64,000 nucleotides of DNA from Cucumis sativus (taxonomy: Eukaryota; Streptophyta; Magnoliopsida; Cucurbitales; Cucurbitaceae), in contig NC_026661.2 in NCBI RefSeq assembly GCF_000004075.3, forward strand, positions 2,108,001-2,172,000. Direction: 5' to 3'. A program made the position numbers and the translations under genes. Shown in pieces: positions 501 through 56,837 of the stretch. The notes under the pieces are model-generated. The model saw only the letters and a list, made by a program, of their open reading frames with translations, ran no database searches and had not been told where the DNA came from. Positions within the stretch are counted from its first letter, which is position 1; each line of letters starts with the position of its first letter.

Positions 501-1098
501 ATGGGATTGGCATTACTACCTTTCTTTTTATTGTTGGCATCTACTATTGAAGCCCAATCCCTTTTTGATGTTACAAGATATGGTGCCAAACCTAATACAG
601 ATATTACTCAGGCAAGTATATATGCAAAACTGATGATTTTTTTTTTTTTAATTTATTAGGAAGAAGACTTTAATTTGATGATAGAACTAAACTTTTGCAG
701 GCCTTAGCAAATGCATGGAAGGAAGCATGTATGTCCACAACTCCTAGTAAATTGTTGATTCCAAAAGGAGTATACCAATTAAGTCAATCTTATCTTAAAG
801 GACCTTGCAAGAGTGTTCCTATTCAAGTCCAAGTCGACGGAACACTAAAAGCTCCTCTCCATCCAAATGGAGATGGGTTGGTTCTTTTTGCATACATTGA
901 TCAACTAATGTTATCAGGCACGGGAGTTTTTGATGGTCAAGGAAAAGCAGGTTGGGATAAGAATGATTGCCACAAAAAGAAGATATGTACCAAACTTCCC
1001 ATGGTAAATTGTTTATATATTATTTCAAACCTTTTGCCTCATTTTATATACAATTTAAATCTACATAATTTCAATTACATATGCGTCGTTTTTAAATT

Positions 1099-1141
<43 letters not shown>

Positions 1142-2043
1142 CTGATCCCTTATTTGTTTAAATCCATCAGAATTTGAAGTTCAGTTTCATCACCAATTCA
1201 ATTGTGAAGGACATAACTTCCTTGGACAGTAAAAATTTCCACATCAATCTTTTGGGTTGCAAGAATGTTACTTTTCAACACGTGACAATCAGTGCACCAG
1301 AGAATAGTCCCAACACGGATGGAATTCACATAAGTAGCTCTGAACAGATAAACATTCTCGATTCAAAAATCTCAACTGGAGATGATTGTGTGTCTGTTGG
1401 AGATAGCAACAAGCAAGTAACTATTACTAATGTAACTTGCGGACCAGGACATGGCATTAGCGTAGGAAGCTTGGGCAAGTACACCAAGGAAAAGGACGTG
1501 GTAGGAGTTACTGTGAAAGCATGCAAATTAATCAATACTACCAACGGTGTCTAGAATCAAAACATGGCCAGATTCTGCCGGTGCATTCATAGCCTCTGAC
1601 ATGCACTTTGAAGATATTGAGATGCAAAACGTGAGCAACCCTGTCATTATAGACCAAGAATACTGTCCGTGGAATCAATGCAACAGAAAGGTATATATTG
1701 TATTGAAATTATACTTTATTTTGTTTATTAGTTAAACTTCATGAACTAAACAAATACACTTTTGGGACCATTAATATTTCAGGTTCCATCCAAGATTAAG
1801 ATCAGCAAAGTGAGTTTCAAAAATATTAGAGGCACTTCTGCTACTCCTATCGCAGTGAAGCTTGTTTGCAGCAAAAGTATACCATGTGAAGGTGTAGAAG
1901 TCGCTGATATTAACCTCACTTATAGTGGAATACGAGGACCGATTTTGTCTGAATGTGCAAACGTGCAGCCTCTCATTACTGGAAAGCAAAGCCCTCAAAT
2001 ATGTGCTAAGCCTGCTCCTGCTGGTGCTCCATCAACAGACTAA
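501..2043 (+). pseudogene. PG-1: polygalacturonase copy 1, frameshifted
   Basis: Four-exon GH28 polygalacturonase gene with exons 501-611, 701-1003, 1171-1690 and 1783-2043. It is nearly identical to intact PG-2, introns included. Exon 3 is 520 bases instead of 519: an extra base in the Gly-Val codons (about 1546-1552) puts a TAG at 1552-1554. The product would stop after residue 265, keeping NTDG, GDDC and GHG but losing the RIK substrate-binding motif and the C-terminal third, so it should not be an active enzyme. The promoter, splice sites and exon 4 are still intact, so the break looks very recent, or it could be an assembly error. The intron 2 poly-T tract is 33 T (1104-1136), the longest of the six copies. 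A poly(A) signal AATAAA is at 2243-2248. Confidence 0.88.
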
Positions 2044-47811: not shown

Positions 47812-49332
47812 ATGGGATTGGCATTACTACCTTTCTTTTTATTGTTGGCATCTACTATTGAAGCCCAATCCCTTTTTGATGTTACAAGATATGGTGCCAA
47901 ACCTAATACAGATATTACTCAGGCAAGTATATATGCAAAACTGATGAATTTTTTTTTTAATTTATTAGGAAGAAGACTTTAATTTGATGATAGAACTAAA
48001 CTTTTGCAGGCCTTAGCAAATGCATGGAAGGAAGCATGTATGTCCACAACTCCTAGTAAATTGTTGATTCCAAAAGGAGTATACCAATTAAGTCAATCTT
48101 ATCTTAAAGGACCTTGCAAGAGTGTTCCTATTCAAGTCCAAGTCGACGGAACACTAAAAGCTCCTCTCCATCCAAATGGAGATGGGTTGGTTCTTTTTGC
48201 ATACATTGATCAACTAATGTTATCAGGCACGGGAGTTTTTGATGGTCAAGGAAAAGCAGGTTGGGATAAGAATGATTGCCACAAAAAGAAGATATGTACC
48301 AAACTTCCCATGGTAAATTGTTTATATATTATTTCAAACCTTTTGCCTCATTTTATATACAATTTAAATCTACATAATTTCAATTACATATGCGTCGTTT
48401 TAAATTGAGAGTTTTTTTTTTTTTTTTATTCTGATCCCTTATTCGTTTAAATCCATCAGAATTTGAAGTTCAGTTTCATCACCAATTCAATTGTGAAGGA
48501 CATAACTTCCTTGGACAGTAAAAATTTCCACATCAATCTTTTGGGTTGCAAGAATGTTACTTTTCAACATGTGACAATCAGTGCACCAGAGAATAGTCCC
48601 AACACTGATGGAATTCACATAAGTAGCTCTGAACAGATAAACATTCTCGATTCAAAAATCTCAACTGGAGATGATTGTGTGTCTGTTGGAGATAGCAACA
48701 AGCAAGTAACTATTACTAATGTAACTTGCGGACCAGGACATGGCATTAGCGTAGGAAGCTTGGGCAAGTACACCAAGGAAAAAGACGTGGTAGGAGTTAC
48801 TGTGAAAGCATGCAAATTAATCAATACTACCAACGCGTGTCAGAATCAAAACCTGGCCAGATTCTGCCGGTGCATTCATAGCCTCTGACATGCACTTTGA
48901 AGATATTGAGATGCAAAACGTGAGCAACCCTGTCATTATAGACCAAGAATACTGTCCGTGGAATCAATGCAACAGAAAGGTATATATTGTATTGAAATTA
49001 TACTTTATTTTGTTTATTAGTTAAACTTCATGAACTAAACAAATACACTTTTGGGACCATTAATATTTCAGGTTCCATCCAAGATTAAGATCAGCAAAGT
49101 GAGTTTCAAAAATATTAGAGGCACTTCTGCTACTCCTATCGCAGTGAAGCTTGTTTGCAGCAAAAGTATACCATGTGAAGGTGTAGAAGTCGCTGATATT
49201 AACCTCACTTATAGTGGAATACGAGGACCGATTTTGTCTGAATGTGCAAACGTGCAGCCTCTCATTACTGGAAAGCAAAGCCCTCAAATATGTGCTAAGC
49301 CTGCTCCTGCTGGTGCTCCATCAACAGACTAA
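47812..49332 (+). pseudogene. PG-6: polygalacturonase copy 6, frameshifted
   Basis: Exons 47812-47922, 48010-48312, 48460-48979 and 49072-49332. Exon 3 has one extra base: AACGCGTGTC replaces AACGGTGTC at about 48834-48842. The frame is lost right before RIK, giving 17 foreign residues and a stop after residue 280. Everything else (promoter, splice sites, GC donor, exon 4) is intact. A nearby ACATGG to ACCTGG change affects the Thr codon of RIKTW. Intron 2 has 16 T. It is the last copy of the homogeneous array. Confidence 0.88.
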
Positions 49333-49942: not shown

Positions 49943-51408
49943 AATTAAGCAACATTAGGTAGTACATTCTTGGTGTTATCAAACACCACCAACAATTAAT
50001 CCGGCCTTCATCCTTCTGAGCAAGGTAGAATAAAGCATACACAGTCACATTAAACCTCGATTAAGTAAGTCACTTTCTCATGCCTTAACAGTCAACAAGA
50101 ACCCAACAAACACTCAATCTTTAATAATATACAAATCCAAGAACAAGCAATATGCACATTAAAATTCCTAACAAAGGCATGGCCCTTCTACTTAAGTCCT
50201 AACAAAATTAAATTTGGAATAGATTTAAAGGACCCTCAATTCACTTTTCTCCTACACAAAGTGGCAAATGCATGCAAATTTTGAACAAACCGACTTCATT
50301 TCTTTCTTATCAATATTTTTCTGTATTTTTCTAATTTTTATTCATTAGCTACAATAATTCGTCCTGGTCGAGGATTATCATACCACAGTAACATTGAGCA
50401 ACCCTAACTGATCATGAGGGAGATTTGTTTTTAAACAAGCAAAAAAGTTCGGTTGGTTGTGTCCTAGTCATGAATACATTGCTAAATTGATATGGAGCCG
50501 GAAAAACGCTACTTAGCCTAGGATATAGCCAGGTGAAGGACTCAAGTGTGCATGAGAGATGGAAGAGAAATTTTTTAAAATATGCTTAATTAAAATCATA
50601 CTTAGTATTTTCTCTTCACAATGCTTCAGTACACATACATGACTCAAAAAGTGTATCATAGGCAAGTCATAGAAAAGCACAAGATAACAAATTAGCAAGC
50701 AACAAAGAAGCACATACAATAGTCCAAGCACAAATGCTCAAAGGCTCTAGCCAGAACATTGACGGTATCCCATCCCAAACTCAAAATCTAACATTGTCTC
50801 CATCCTAATAGAAAGGATATCGAATCGGTCTATATCGCGATGGCATTGTGACTGATCTTCTCCTAAGAATACGAATATATGATAAGTAAATAAGTAAATT
50901 TTGGCACATATTTTTAACCTCTTACAAAGAAAGTGATTTAAGATATGTCAAAAGTGGTTTTATTTTCAGTACATGGGAAGCAGATTTAAATTAATACACC
51001 TCATGGTTACTAATAATCTTGTCTGCCAGATGAATTTTTGCTCCATTTGACATATCAAAAGTGACTTTAATCATTGACAAATTACTCTCCTACATACCCT
51101 TTAACTAACTATAGAAATATTTGAGCCACTTCATATAATAATAGAGACGAGGTTATAAATTTTTTTCAATTTCTCAGAGGTTGTTTTTCAATCAAATACA
51201 ATCCTAATTATGTCATATGTTTTTTCACTAAAATTATCCGTTCTTCCTTTTTTCAGTTGGTCTCAAACATAAATTTTATTGAGGTGAGGAAATGATTAGT
51301 AAATTCCATTTGTTATGAAATGGCTATTTTTATGACGGACAGCCTAATGGTTTAGCTTCAATCTTTCAACGATCTTTTTCCAAATTTAGCAACCAAGATT
51401 TTTTGGAA
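49943..51408. other. Gene-free interval between the array and PG-7
   Basis: No convincing ORF. The part at about 49980-50880 is less AT-rich than its surroundings and may be an old unclassified repeat, judged only by style. The last 200 bases resemble the PG promoters (AAATTTAGCAACCAAGATT against the array's ATATAGTAAATAAAATT). Confidence 0.4.
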
Positions 51409-51416
51409 TATATAAA
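51409..51416 (+). promoter_or_regulatory. TATA box of PG-7
   Basis: TATATAAA followed by GAGGGG, 115 bases before the first ATG. The TATATAAAGAGG core and the downstream TGCATATT are shared with the array promoters, so PG-7 has a diverged form of the same promoter. Confidence 0.75.
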
Positions 51417-51523
51417 GAGGGGTTGGATGACTGCATATTTGAATCATTCATTCCCATTTTCATAGTTAATTAAATTAGAATAAAGAGAAAATCATAAGCA
51501 AAAAGTAGAAGACATACATAAAA

Positions 51524-53094
51524 ATGATGGGATTGAAGTCAAACATTATGGCATTACTATTACATCTGTTGTTAATGTTGGCATCAACCGCAAAAGGTCA
51601 ATCCATTTTTGATATCACTACGTATGGTGCCAAACCTAATACTGATATTACTCAGGTAAATATATATTAGCTTGATAAATTTTGCATTTTATGTAATTTT
51701 TTTATCTAATGAAATAATTCAATTTATAGGCTTTGGCAAATGCATGGAAGGATGCATGTGCATCGACCAATTCTAGTATATTGTTGATTCCAATAGGAGT
51801 TTACCAACTAAACCAATCCATTCTCGATGGTCCTTGCAAGAGTACTATTGACTTTCGGTTGGAAGGAACATTACAAGCTCATCCCAATCCAATAGGAAAT
51901 ATGATGGTTCTTTTTGAACATATCGATCAATTGACAGTGTCAGGCACTGGTGCTTTTGATGGCCAACGAAAAAAGGGTGGAGACAAAAATGATTGTCGCT
52001 TGGAAAAAACATGCGCTAAATTTCCCCGGGTAAATTCTCTAGTTATATTATCTTCTTTCTCTTTATTCTTGAAGAATACATAATTTTTCAATTAATATAT
52101 GCATTTTTTTCTAACTCGGATACCTTATCTTTTGGGCGGGCCGACATTAAATTTGTAAGAATGTGAAGTTCAATTCCATAAACAATTCAATAGTGAAGGA
52201 CATAACTTCCTTGGATAGTCAGAATTTTCACATCAATCTTTTCGATTGCAAGAATGTTACTCTCCAAAATGTGACAATTATTTCACCAGAGAGTAACCCC
52301 AACTCTGATGGAATTCATGTGAGCAGTTCAGAAGAGATTAACATTCTCAATACACAAATCTCAAACGGAGCTGATTGTGTATCTGTTGGAGACAGCAGCA
52401 AGCAAATAACTATTACTAATGTAACTTGCGGACCAGGAGATGGCATTAGTATAGGAAGTTTAGGCAGGTACGCTAATAGAACAGAGGTGACAGGAGTTAC
52501 AGTGAAATCATGTAAATTAATCAATACTTGGAATGGTGTTAGAATCAAGTCGTGGCCAGATTCTGCATCTGCATACACAGCCTCTGACTTACATTTTGAA
52601 GATATTGAAATGGTTAATGTTAGCAATCCTGTCGTTATTAACCAAGAATATTGTCCATTTGATCAATGCGACAAAAAGGTACATATGTATTGAAATTGCT
52701 CCTTATTCATAATTTGCAACTAATTAATTTACTTCAAGTAATATTTTTCTTATATATAACGAATGCAAAACTAACATGATTTAATTTTTGGTTTCTTATG
52801 TATACGTTTGTTCAGATTCCATCAAAAATTAAGATCAGCAACGTTAGTTTCAAGAATATCAGAGGCACTTCTGCTACTTCGGTTGCTATTCAACTTATTT
52901 GTAGCAAAGATTTACCGTGCGAAGATGTGGAAGTTGCTGATATTGACCTAACTTACACCGGAACTCAAGGACGGATTACGTCTCAGTGTAGAAACGTGAT
53001 TCCCATCATTACTGGAAAGCAAAATCCTCGTGCGTGTGTCGAAGCTGCTCCTATTAATGCTACATCCACATCCACGTCAATGGCAGAACTCTAA
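51524..53094 (+). CDS. PG-7: divergent polygalacturonase-like protein, probably catalytically dead
   Basis: Exons 51524-51655, 51730-52029, 52160-52678 and 52816-53094 give 409 aa, with the same intron positions and phases as the array genes. Here intron 1 has a standard GT donor (51656-51657). Two ATGs stand in tandem (51524, 51527). A signal peptide ends near residue 25 (ASTAKG). It is full length with no stop. However, the GDDC motif reads GADC (Ala215), GHG reads GDG (Asp238 for the catalytic His) and NTDG reads NSDG, while RIK (272-274) is kept. In GH28 the first Asp of the pair is the general acid, so hydrolysis should be lost or very low. It may be a pectin-binding pseudoenzyme or a gene under relaxed selection. 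Poly(A) signal AATAAA at 53118-53123. Confidence 0.93.
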
Positions 53095-53690
53095 ACCCTA
53101 AATTTGCCGTTAGCTATAATAAAACTTGAAATTTATAGCCATTTTGTTTTAGATTGAAAAACACATTTTTCAAACTGTTTTGTATTCTGAAAACAAATAT
53201 CATCTGTGTCTATCTCTGTATGTTTTGTATTGCTTAATTGTATCTTTATATGTTTTTTTATTACTTAATTGTTGATTTTGTAACTTCTTTTTCAACCTTT
53301 CTATTTTAAATCTTTTATTTATGAAAAATTGTATCAAATGACAAAAAAACATTTAGAAAAAAATAGTCTATGGCATCAATTTTTCTTGCATATTGGAAAT
53401 ATAGGATATCGACTATTAGAGGGTCATCCAGCTGTAATCATAGAGCTATCAGATAGTCATCAATTTTAAATTTGCTATTGAGCTCTATTATCATAAAACT
53501 CTTTACTATTCTTGCAAAAGCTCATTTATTAATTTTCTTTCTTTAAATCTATAACTAAGTTTTTTTAGAAGGGGTGCATCAAGGTAGGTCACAAGTTAGT
53601 ACTGCATCCAAGCACGCTTAAATTAATTAAACTTAGTACTACTCTACTCTTGCCCAAGCACATATAGTGGAGTTCTAACCGACTTGGTAC
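53095..53690. other. Intergenic, 3' of PG-7
   Basis: 3' UTR with AATAAA at 53118-53123, then AT-rich DNA. No gene seen. Confidence 0.5.
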
Positions 53691-54298: not shown

Positions 54299-55403
54299 GA
54301 AGTTGTGATGGGATCTGGTGTACTGGTAGAGTTGTGCATGTCACCATTTTTAAATTAGAGCTTTCTTAGCTTGTTGAGATGTTTTTGTTATATTTATTTA
54401 ATTTCTTTGCTCTTGTAATGAAAATGTCAATCAATGTTGTGTTTACAGAGATATGAATCCTTACCTAAATCCAAACTTCCTCCAAACCATAGAGACGTAT
54501 TTTGTAGGTAATTACTCCACGAGTCACTAGTTTTCAGTTGTCTAAAATAAGAATTATATTCCTTTTCTAAATCTGCTACCGAAATCACGTATCTGCATGG
54601 TAAAGATAACATGCATCAAAATTGTTGAGTTATTAAGGTCAAATGACAGAACAGAAGTCCCTAAACCCTGAACCCTGAAACGATCTTCCAAAAATTTGGG
54701 GATAAGTGTTTGATCGAGATCTTGTTGGTACTTTGATCTGTTTGATTTTGGAGTGATTTTAGATTCAATTTCTGGTAGATTTCCCCTTAATTTTAGTGAT
54801 CTGTTACGTATTAAAATAGAATGGTTTGAAAAAAAAAATGGTCATTAATTGAACTTCTAACATTAAAACTAACGTCATATAGCCCCACACTGAAAGATTG
54901 AATTATAGTTTTTCTTTTTTTCCAATTTCTATACTAAAAGTTCTAATCACATTTATTTCAAATCTTCACTGTCAAATTTCGTTAAACTTACAAATTGGAA
55001 TCTCTGTTGAAAATGTTAGGGAACTCTTATTTTATGTAAAAAATAAGTTTTTTTTTTCTTGGGAAGACAGAAACAGGGTACCAAGGAGTAATCCTATCTA
55101 ACTACTTGTATGTATAAAGGTATATTAAACTTTTTTTTTTAAGTCTATGTATATGCATTGAAACCTAGTTGAGATAATAAGGTACATTTTTTATGACTTG
55201 TTAAAAAAAAAAGGGTGAACTAGTGATAATTGAAATTTAGTACTCTTAGGGTCAAAAATCCAAATTCTGCTACTCCGATTTGATATAATAAACAAAAATT
55301 ATGCATGCTTATTCTAAACAGCTAGGGTTAGATGATATTTTGAGAACCATTCAACTAAAGAAAAGCTTCATATTTCACCCTTCATCTTCAATCTCTAAGA
55401 ACA
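54299..55403. other. Intergenic, upstream of the UGT gene
   Basis: AT-rich; short ORFs here look random. A TATA-like GATATAATAAAC at about 55281-55292 is 115-120 bases before the UGT ATG and is the best promoter candidate. Confidence 0.45.
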
Positions 55404-56837
55404 ATGGCTGCCGAAGCAGCAGCGACGGCCACCGCCCGCCATACTTCCCTCCACATTGCGATGTACCCTTGGTTTGCTCTTGGCCATCTCACTCCATTTC
55501 TCCATCTCTCCAATAAACTAGCCAAAAAAGGCCACAAAATCTCTTTCTTCATCCCCACCAAAACCCTTCCCAAATTTGAGCCCTTAAATCTCTTCCCTAA
55601 TCTCATTACATTCATTCCTGTCATTGTTCCTCATGTCCATGGCCTCCCACATGGTGCAGAGACCACTTGTGATGTCCCTTACCCTCTCCATAACCTCATC
55701 ATGACCTCCATGGATCTCACTCAACCTCAAATCACTCTCCTCCTTCAAACTCTAAAACCCCATCTCATCCTCTTTGATTTCACTCATTGGTTGCCAAAAT
55801 TAGCTAGCCAATTAGGTATCAAATCAATCCATTATTGTGTTACTAGTGCAGCCATGATTGCTTATACTCTAACCCCTTCAAGGCAATTTTATAAAAATGA
55901 GTTAACTGAGGAAGATCTCATGAAACCCCCAGTTGGTTATCCCAGTTCCACCATAAACCTTCATCCCCATGAAGCAAGAGTTTTTGCTTCAAAAAGAAAA
56001 TGGAAGTTTGGGAGTGATGTACTTTTTTATGATCGCCAATTTGTAAGTTTTAGTGATTGTGATGCAATAGGGTTTAGAACATGTCATGAGATTGAGGGAG
56101 ATTTTGTGAATTATCTTCAATTTGAGTTCAGAAAACCTGTTTTGCTTACTGGGTCTGTTTTGCCTGAAACACTAAACCCTGAAGCTTTGGAGGAGAAATG
56201 GGAAAGTTGGCTTTTAGGTTTTAAGGAGGGCTCAGTGGTATATTGTGCATTTGGGAGCGAGTGCACGTTACAAATGGAGCAATTTCAAGAACTTTTGATG
56301 GGGTTTGAGCTTTTAGACATGCCATTCCTTGCTGCACTCAAACCGCCTTTCGGGGCAGAAACAGTTGAGGCTGCGTTGCCGGAGGGGTTTGCAAAAAGAG
56401 TCGGGGGACGAGGGGTGGTTTACGGTGGGTGGATTCAACAAGAGAGGATTTTGGAGCATCCATCCGTGGGATGCTTTGTTACACACTGTGGTTCTAATTC
56501 TTTAAAAGAGGCATTGGTGAATAAGTGTCAATTGGTGCTGTTGCCTCAAGTTGGGGATCAAATTATCAATGCAAGGATGATGGGGAACAATCTTAGGGTT
56601 GGGGTGGAGGTGGAAAAAAGACAAGAAGATGGATGGTTTACAAAGGAAAGTGTTTGTAAAGCTGTGAAGATTGTAATGGATGAAGATAATGAAATTGGAA
56701 AAGAAGTTAGAACAAATCATTCTAAAATAAGGGATCTTTTGTTGAAAAAAGATTTGGAAGAGTCTTATATTGATAGTTTTAGCTACAATATTTGTGATTT
56801 GGTGGCATCTATGGAAGTAACATCCAAAAACATGTAG
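55404..56837 (+). CDS. UDP-glycosyltransferase, UGT79/UGT91-like (group A)
   Basis: Intronless 477-aa family 1 glycosyltransferase; group A enzymes usually run 440-470 aa. It should transfer a sugar from a UDP-sugar to an acceptor in the cytosol. Many group A members add a sugar to an existing sugar of a flavonoid or terpenoid glycoside, but the acceptor here cannot be read from sequence. The N-terminal [13 protein letters not shown] holds the catalytic His28, with its partner Asp125 in LILFDF. The 44-residue PSPG donor box spans Trp343 to Gln386: it starts [16 protein letters not shown], has HCGSNS where many families have HCGWNS, and ends DQ, common in UDP-glucose users. The start at 55404 gives an Ala/Thr-rich leader of 15 residues; Met20 (55461) is a less likely alternative because it would cut the first beta strand. 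No signal peptide. It is unrelated to its PG neighbours. Confidence 0.93.

Follow-up and report, generated by a model that had tools for sequence, protein, structure and literature searches.

The window analysed here is a stretch of 64,000 nucleotides from Cucumis sativus (C7:2108001-2172000). It carries at 51524-53094, on the plus strand, the gene PG-7, which has four exons and encodes 409 amino acids. Exon 1 (51524..51655, residues 1-44) encodes an N-terminus that, judged by eye, looks like a signal peptide. It is followed by exon 2 (51730..52029, residues 45-144), exon 3 (52160..52678, residues 145-317), inside which the four polygalacturonase (PG) motifs lie, and exon 4 (52816..53094), which supplies residues 318-409 and a new stop codon. 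All exons are in phase 0, the introns run from GT to AG, and once joined the exons give 409 residues and a stop. The acceptor of exon 3 was picked by homology (intron ending at 52159); alternative acceptors, with introns ending at 52168 and 52198, also give an open frame, and the motif calls are unaffected by the choice. The protein belongs to the GH28 family, matching Pfam PF00295 over profile positions 1-318 of 324 (E 1e-89). No premature stop or frameshift of the kind expected in a pseudogene is found across the four exons. A sequence-only reading had described a 409-residue frame with no stop and perfect intron structure; the open frame and the GT..AG introns hold, but the 3' end is altered and the ancestral stop is gone. 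Short dispersed repeats lie on both sides of the gene, at about 50513-50803 and 53288-53529, the left one matching 12 other places and the right one giving about 40 match rows. Just downstream, at 55359-56837 of the window, is an intact open frame of 492 amino acids that by eye looks glycosyltransferase-like.

The nearest paralog of PG-7 is S2232, which lies about 70 kb away on the minus strand (C7:2231392-2232982, locus L046). It is the same four-exon gene, and the two have in common an upstream stretch of about 300 bp (51220..51523 on the plus strand of PG-7, 87%), likely to be the promoter region. Identical bases number 127 of 132 in exon 1, 263 of 300 in exon 2 and 465 of 519 in exon 3, the last two being gap-free, and amino-acid identity over exons 1 to 4 is 95, 76, 79 and 77%. 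The paralogs are sisters in both the nucleotide and the protein tree, with 100% support in each, and their branches are unequal: 0.089 for PG-7 versus 0.037 for S2232 in nucleotides, and 0.199 versus 0.074 in protein. Unlike PG-7, S2232 has all four motifs (NTDG, GDDC, GHG and RIK) as well as the ancestral stop, and its branch omega is 0.42.

Six near-identical genes, W1-W6, precede PG-7 in the window, with broken remnants of further copies between them. By similarity, the array would consist of clade-C polygalacturonases of the pollen/exo type. W2-W5 are open, while two of the six copies, W1 and W6, are frameshifted. These two carry different one-base insertions in exon 3 (window 1171-1690 and 48460-48979), a few bases before RIK, and are otherwise 1 and 3 substitutions away from W3 over exons 2-4; either these are genuine frameshifts, or polishing went wrong where the tandem copies are nearly identical. 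The W gene bodies are almost identical, introns included, and the outer flanks diverge sharply, as would result if a short unit was duplicated recently or the copies were homogenised. Unit-wide counts for the W copies include these diverging flanks and were left out of any calibration. Intron 1 of the W genes starts with GC rather than GT (CAG/GCAAGT; window 540-611 and the corresponding exons in W2-W6), unlike that of PG-7 and S2232, which starts with GT. Elsewhere in the genome, C6:22546555-22574212 holds six copies of one GH28 gene as three inverted pairs with identical scores, through either palindromic amplification in the recent past or an effect of the assembly. On C5, a Bet v 1-family gene and a GH28 gene lie in a stretch that is present in two places 753 kb from each other, with equal scores (C5:7954183-7959090 and C5:8707553-8712460).

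The active-site motifs of PG-7 are altered. GDDC is GADC, through Ala215 (codon GCT, 52370..52372); GHG is GDG, through Asp238 (codon GAT, 52439..52441); and NTDG is NSDG, through Ser193 (52304..52306), all on the plus strand. At the positions of Ala215 and Asp238, S2232 has GAT and CAT. The motif calls of the sequence-only reading are thus confirmed, as is its count of replaced catalytic residues, which is two and not three because NSDG keeps its Asp. Within the catalytic Asp trio of NTD and GDD, Asp194 and Asp216 are kept and Asp215 has become Ala, and the His of GHG is missing. The RIK motif of active polygalacturonases is present, and the alignment shows Arg272, Lys274 and Tyr308 to be retained. 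In a set of 20 distinct translations of exon 3, each 150 amino acids or longer and drawn from loci L001-L058, GADC or GDG occurs only in PG-7. GDDC is found in 18 of the 20, the exceptions being PG-7 and one copy with four stops, and GHG in 19, PG-7 being the sole exception. The other copies are not all perfect, since two of the 20 do not show the PNTDG pattern and one does not show R[IV]K.

By motif, Ala215 corresponds to Asp201 and Asp238 to His223 of Aspergillus niger endoPGII, in which Asp201 is the general acid. Asp180, Asp201 and Asp202 are described as required and a His223 mutant as almost inactive, and a direct role of the His in catalysis itself is doubted (PMC8952511). The alignment of the two changed residues with Asp201 and His223 gives good support to the prediction that PG-7 is without the normal catalytic mechanism. 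The standard polygalacturonase mechanism has very likely been lost, and hydrolase activity would have been lost with it.

The 3' end of the gene has also been rebuilt. The match to S2232 breaks off after 53069 and resumes at 53118. The 48 bp in between (53070..53117, plus strand) have no BLAST match to S2232, supply the new tail and stop, and replace 238 bp that in S2232 contain the ancestral stop codon and the first part of the 3' UTR. S2232 and W3 have the stop region in common, and PG-7 falls short of S2232 by about 190 bp here. An AATAAA follows shortly after the new stop.

To assess selection, a branch codon model was fitted to exons 2-4 of 12 genes, all paralogs, taken from an alignment of 16. 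The near copies W2, W4, W5 and C7d are in the alignment but outside the codon model. C5b, which encodes the same protein as C5a, and C5c, whose exon 2 as boxed is out of frame, stand outside the alignment, and the gene models exclude further fragments or copies in L039, L051, L054 and the C5:16995- and C5:20099-kb genes. Freeing the PG-7 branch alone rejects the one-ratio model (2dlnL 37.5, p 9e-10). With both sister branches free, omega is 0.192 for the background, 1.063 for PG-7 and 0.424 for S2232. For PG-7, omega = 1 is not rejected (p 0.55, or 0.86 with S2232 free), and the profile supports about 0.58-2.3 by interpolation. S2232 may be relaxed too, since a model giving both branches one omega, 0.77, is acceptable as well (2dlnL 2.2, a loss of only 1.1 log units against separate values). 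Relative-rate tests against W3 count 45 amino-acid changes in PG-7 only versus 16 in S2232 only (p 0.0002), and 66 versus 36 nucleotide changes (p 0.003). Exon by exon (2, 3 and 4), omega is 0.95, 1.54 and 0.46 for PG-7 and 0.26, 0.27 and 1.29 for S2232. Exon 4 (C7:2231392-2231667 in S2232) therefore reverses the trend of exons 2 and 3, being fast in S2232 and constrained-looking in PG-7. The sequence-only reading had proposed dN/dS as a means of telling a kept role from simple decay. On paralogs it gives an omega of about 1, close to what decay predicts, while the open frame speaks for that reading.

The position of the changes was compared with a neutral simulation (2,000 runs, each starting from present-day S2232 and ending once 34 unambiguous changes had accumulated). 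Columns invariant in the 10 other paralogs number 154 of the 347 scored, and PG-7 differs at 21 of these and S2232 at 8. PG-7 has 34 unambiguous changes and S2232 has 9. Half of those in PG-7 (17 of 34) fall on invariant columns, versus 18.3 in the simulation (sd 2.7), and no sparing of hydrophobic columns is seen (9 observed, 11.0 simulated). Relative to the same simulation, no enrichment at catalytic positions beyond drift was found. Since invariant positions changed about as often as under drift, the catalytic residues are not singled out, and since invariant and hydrophobic columns are hit as in the simulation, the catalytic losses are part of a general loss. With omega not different from 1 as well, the substitution pattern is the neutral one of a pseudogene, with the exception that the replacements are milder than neutral: their mean BLOSUM62 score is 0.09 versus -0.60, and 1% of simulations are as mild. 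All 14 invariant Cys and 12 invariant Pro are retained; the absence of Cys losses, and of gains of Pro or Cys, is not significant (p about 0.14 each).

The open frame sets a limit on how long PG-7 can have been free of constraint. Exons 1-3 align with S2232 without gaps, whereas the three introns show 9 gap runs, two of them at intron ends and possibly alignment artefacts, and 48 substitutions over 339 aligned bases. About 4% of neutral substitutions make a stop, and a wholly neutral PG-7 branch implies about 99 neutral substitutions in the 409 codons. In the neutral simulation at the divergence of exons 2-4, the chance of having no stop is 0.073 on stops alone. Over the full length, neutrality would cost about 4 log units if only stops are counted, and adding indels at 0.05-0.2 per substitution raises this to 8 to 19 (the indel-to-substitution ratio was assumed, from 0 to 0.2). 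If PG-7 was at first relaxed in the manner of S2232 and turned neutral just for the final tenth to quarter of its branch, the costs add up to 1.5 to 6.8. Because of the open frame, neutrality along the entire branch was rejected as all there is to PG-7. Full neutrality makes such a frame improbable, so selection that is weak, or was lifted recently, must be assumed, and because the costs are 1.5-6.8 versus 4-19, recent loss after weak constraint is comfortable and a long-dead gene is not. Either the full loss of function is recent and followed weak constraint, or some selection at the protein level persists.

The frame held open against expectation is what gives weight to the idea of a retained pseudoenzyme, a secreted protein of beta-helix fold that selection keeps for something other than hydrolysis, such as pectin binding, occupation of inhibitors or partnership with active PGs. 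The omega near 1 would then combine positive selection in the cleft with purifying selection elsewhere. The exon-3 omega of 1.54 speaks for this idea, as do the mild replacements with their invariant Cys and Pro kept, the survival of Arg272, Lys274, Tyr308 and two of the three Asp, and the very replacement of catalytic residues within an open frame. The lack of clustering at catalytic positions beyond drift argues against it, however, as do the failure to avoid invariant and hydrophobic columns and an omega not significantly above 1, and we consider this explanation rather unlikely. The best-known retained GH28 pseudoenzymes are those of leaf beetles (Phaedon cochleariae GH28-3 and others). 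Like PG-7 they have replaced catalytic residues beside active paralogs, but they are described as expressed and under strong purifying selection, whereas the omega of PG-7 is near 1 (PMC6549527, PMC8213348). Silencing them is reported to have slowed larval development, and they matter for larval growth (PMC6549527). The purifying signature is absent from PG-7, which for that reason is not grouped with them. The one beetle pseudoenzyme whose binding was assayed did not attach to pectin or to classical PGIPs, although it did bind PGIP-like proteins, which weakens the decoy and pectin-binding ideas (PMC8213348). A literature search of partial coverage found no plant GH28 pseudoenzyme with a shown function, and no published expression record attributable to PG-7. 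It is a little less likely again that PG-7 is kept as a protein whose frame is held by selection while the cleft is freed from constraint or reshaped; the product would be a secreted pectin-fold protein that does not hydrolyse, made alongside the active PGs of an array. If the frame is kept in this way, PG-7 would be to plants what the GH28 pseudoenzymes are to beetles, and would offer a ready means of testing what a dead pectinase does there.

That PG-7 is still an enzyme, with weak or altered activity, is improbable. Asp194 and Asp216, the equivalents of Asp180 and Asp202, are present together with RIK, and rhamnogalacturonases are also described as being without the His, but the same source has Asp201 as necessary for catalysis by endoPGII (PMC8952511). 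Moreover, Thr268Trp and Asp305Asn fall at positions that, going by motif offset, would match Glu252 and Gln288 of subsite +2. ADPG2 is presumably an endo-PG of another clade than PG-7. It is the closest solved structure by sequence (PDB 7b8b) and is GH28 like PG-7, over residues 27-362 (E 1.8e-65), but unlike PG-7 it has both GDDC and GHG. Annotated plant PGs with incomplete motifs have been reported: maize ZmPG25, ZmPG55 and ZmPG7 are, like PG-7, without one or more of the four, but there whole motifs are missing (PMC8509529). Brassica oleracea likewise has members listed with only one or two of the four motifs (PMC7461206). Near-identical tandem copies in a long-read assembly invite errors, yet an assembly or sequencing artefact is very hard to credit here, as many dispersed in-frame substitutions set PG-7 apart from every other copy, exons 1-3 are free of indels, and the flanks of PG-7 are unique at this place.

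We therefore regard PG-7 as probably a catalytically dead duplicate, already far along in decay, in a birth-and-death array of polygalacturonases. A duplication would have yielded PG-7 and S2232, after which constraint on PG-7 would have dropped to near nothing. Drift would then have replaced residues throughout the protein, hitting the active site twice, and the former stop codon may have gone in a deletion together with the beginning of the 3' UTR. That the frame is still open would be due either to recent full loss of function or to weak remaining selection. The suggestion that an intact frame points to a kept non-enzymatic role is not supported in that form, given an omega of about 1, invariant positions hit as under neutrality, and the disappearance of the ancestral stop and 3' UTR start. 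PG-7 appears to be without function, and nothing supports a specific non-enzymatic role for it. If it is indeed decaying, PG-7 would be a routine example of birth and death among tandem enzyme genes, and would warn against scoring every full-length GH28 model as an active pectinase.
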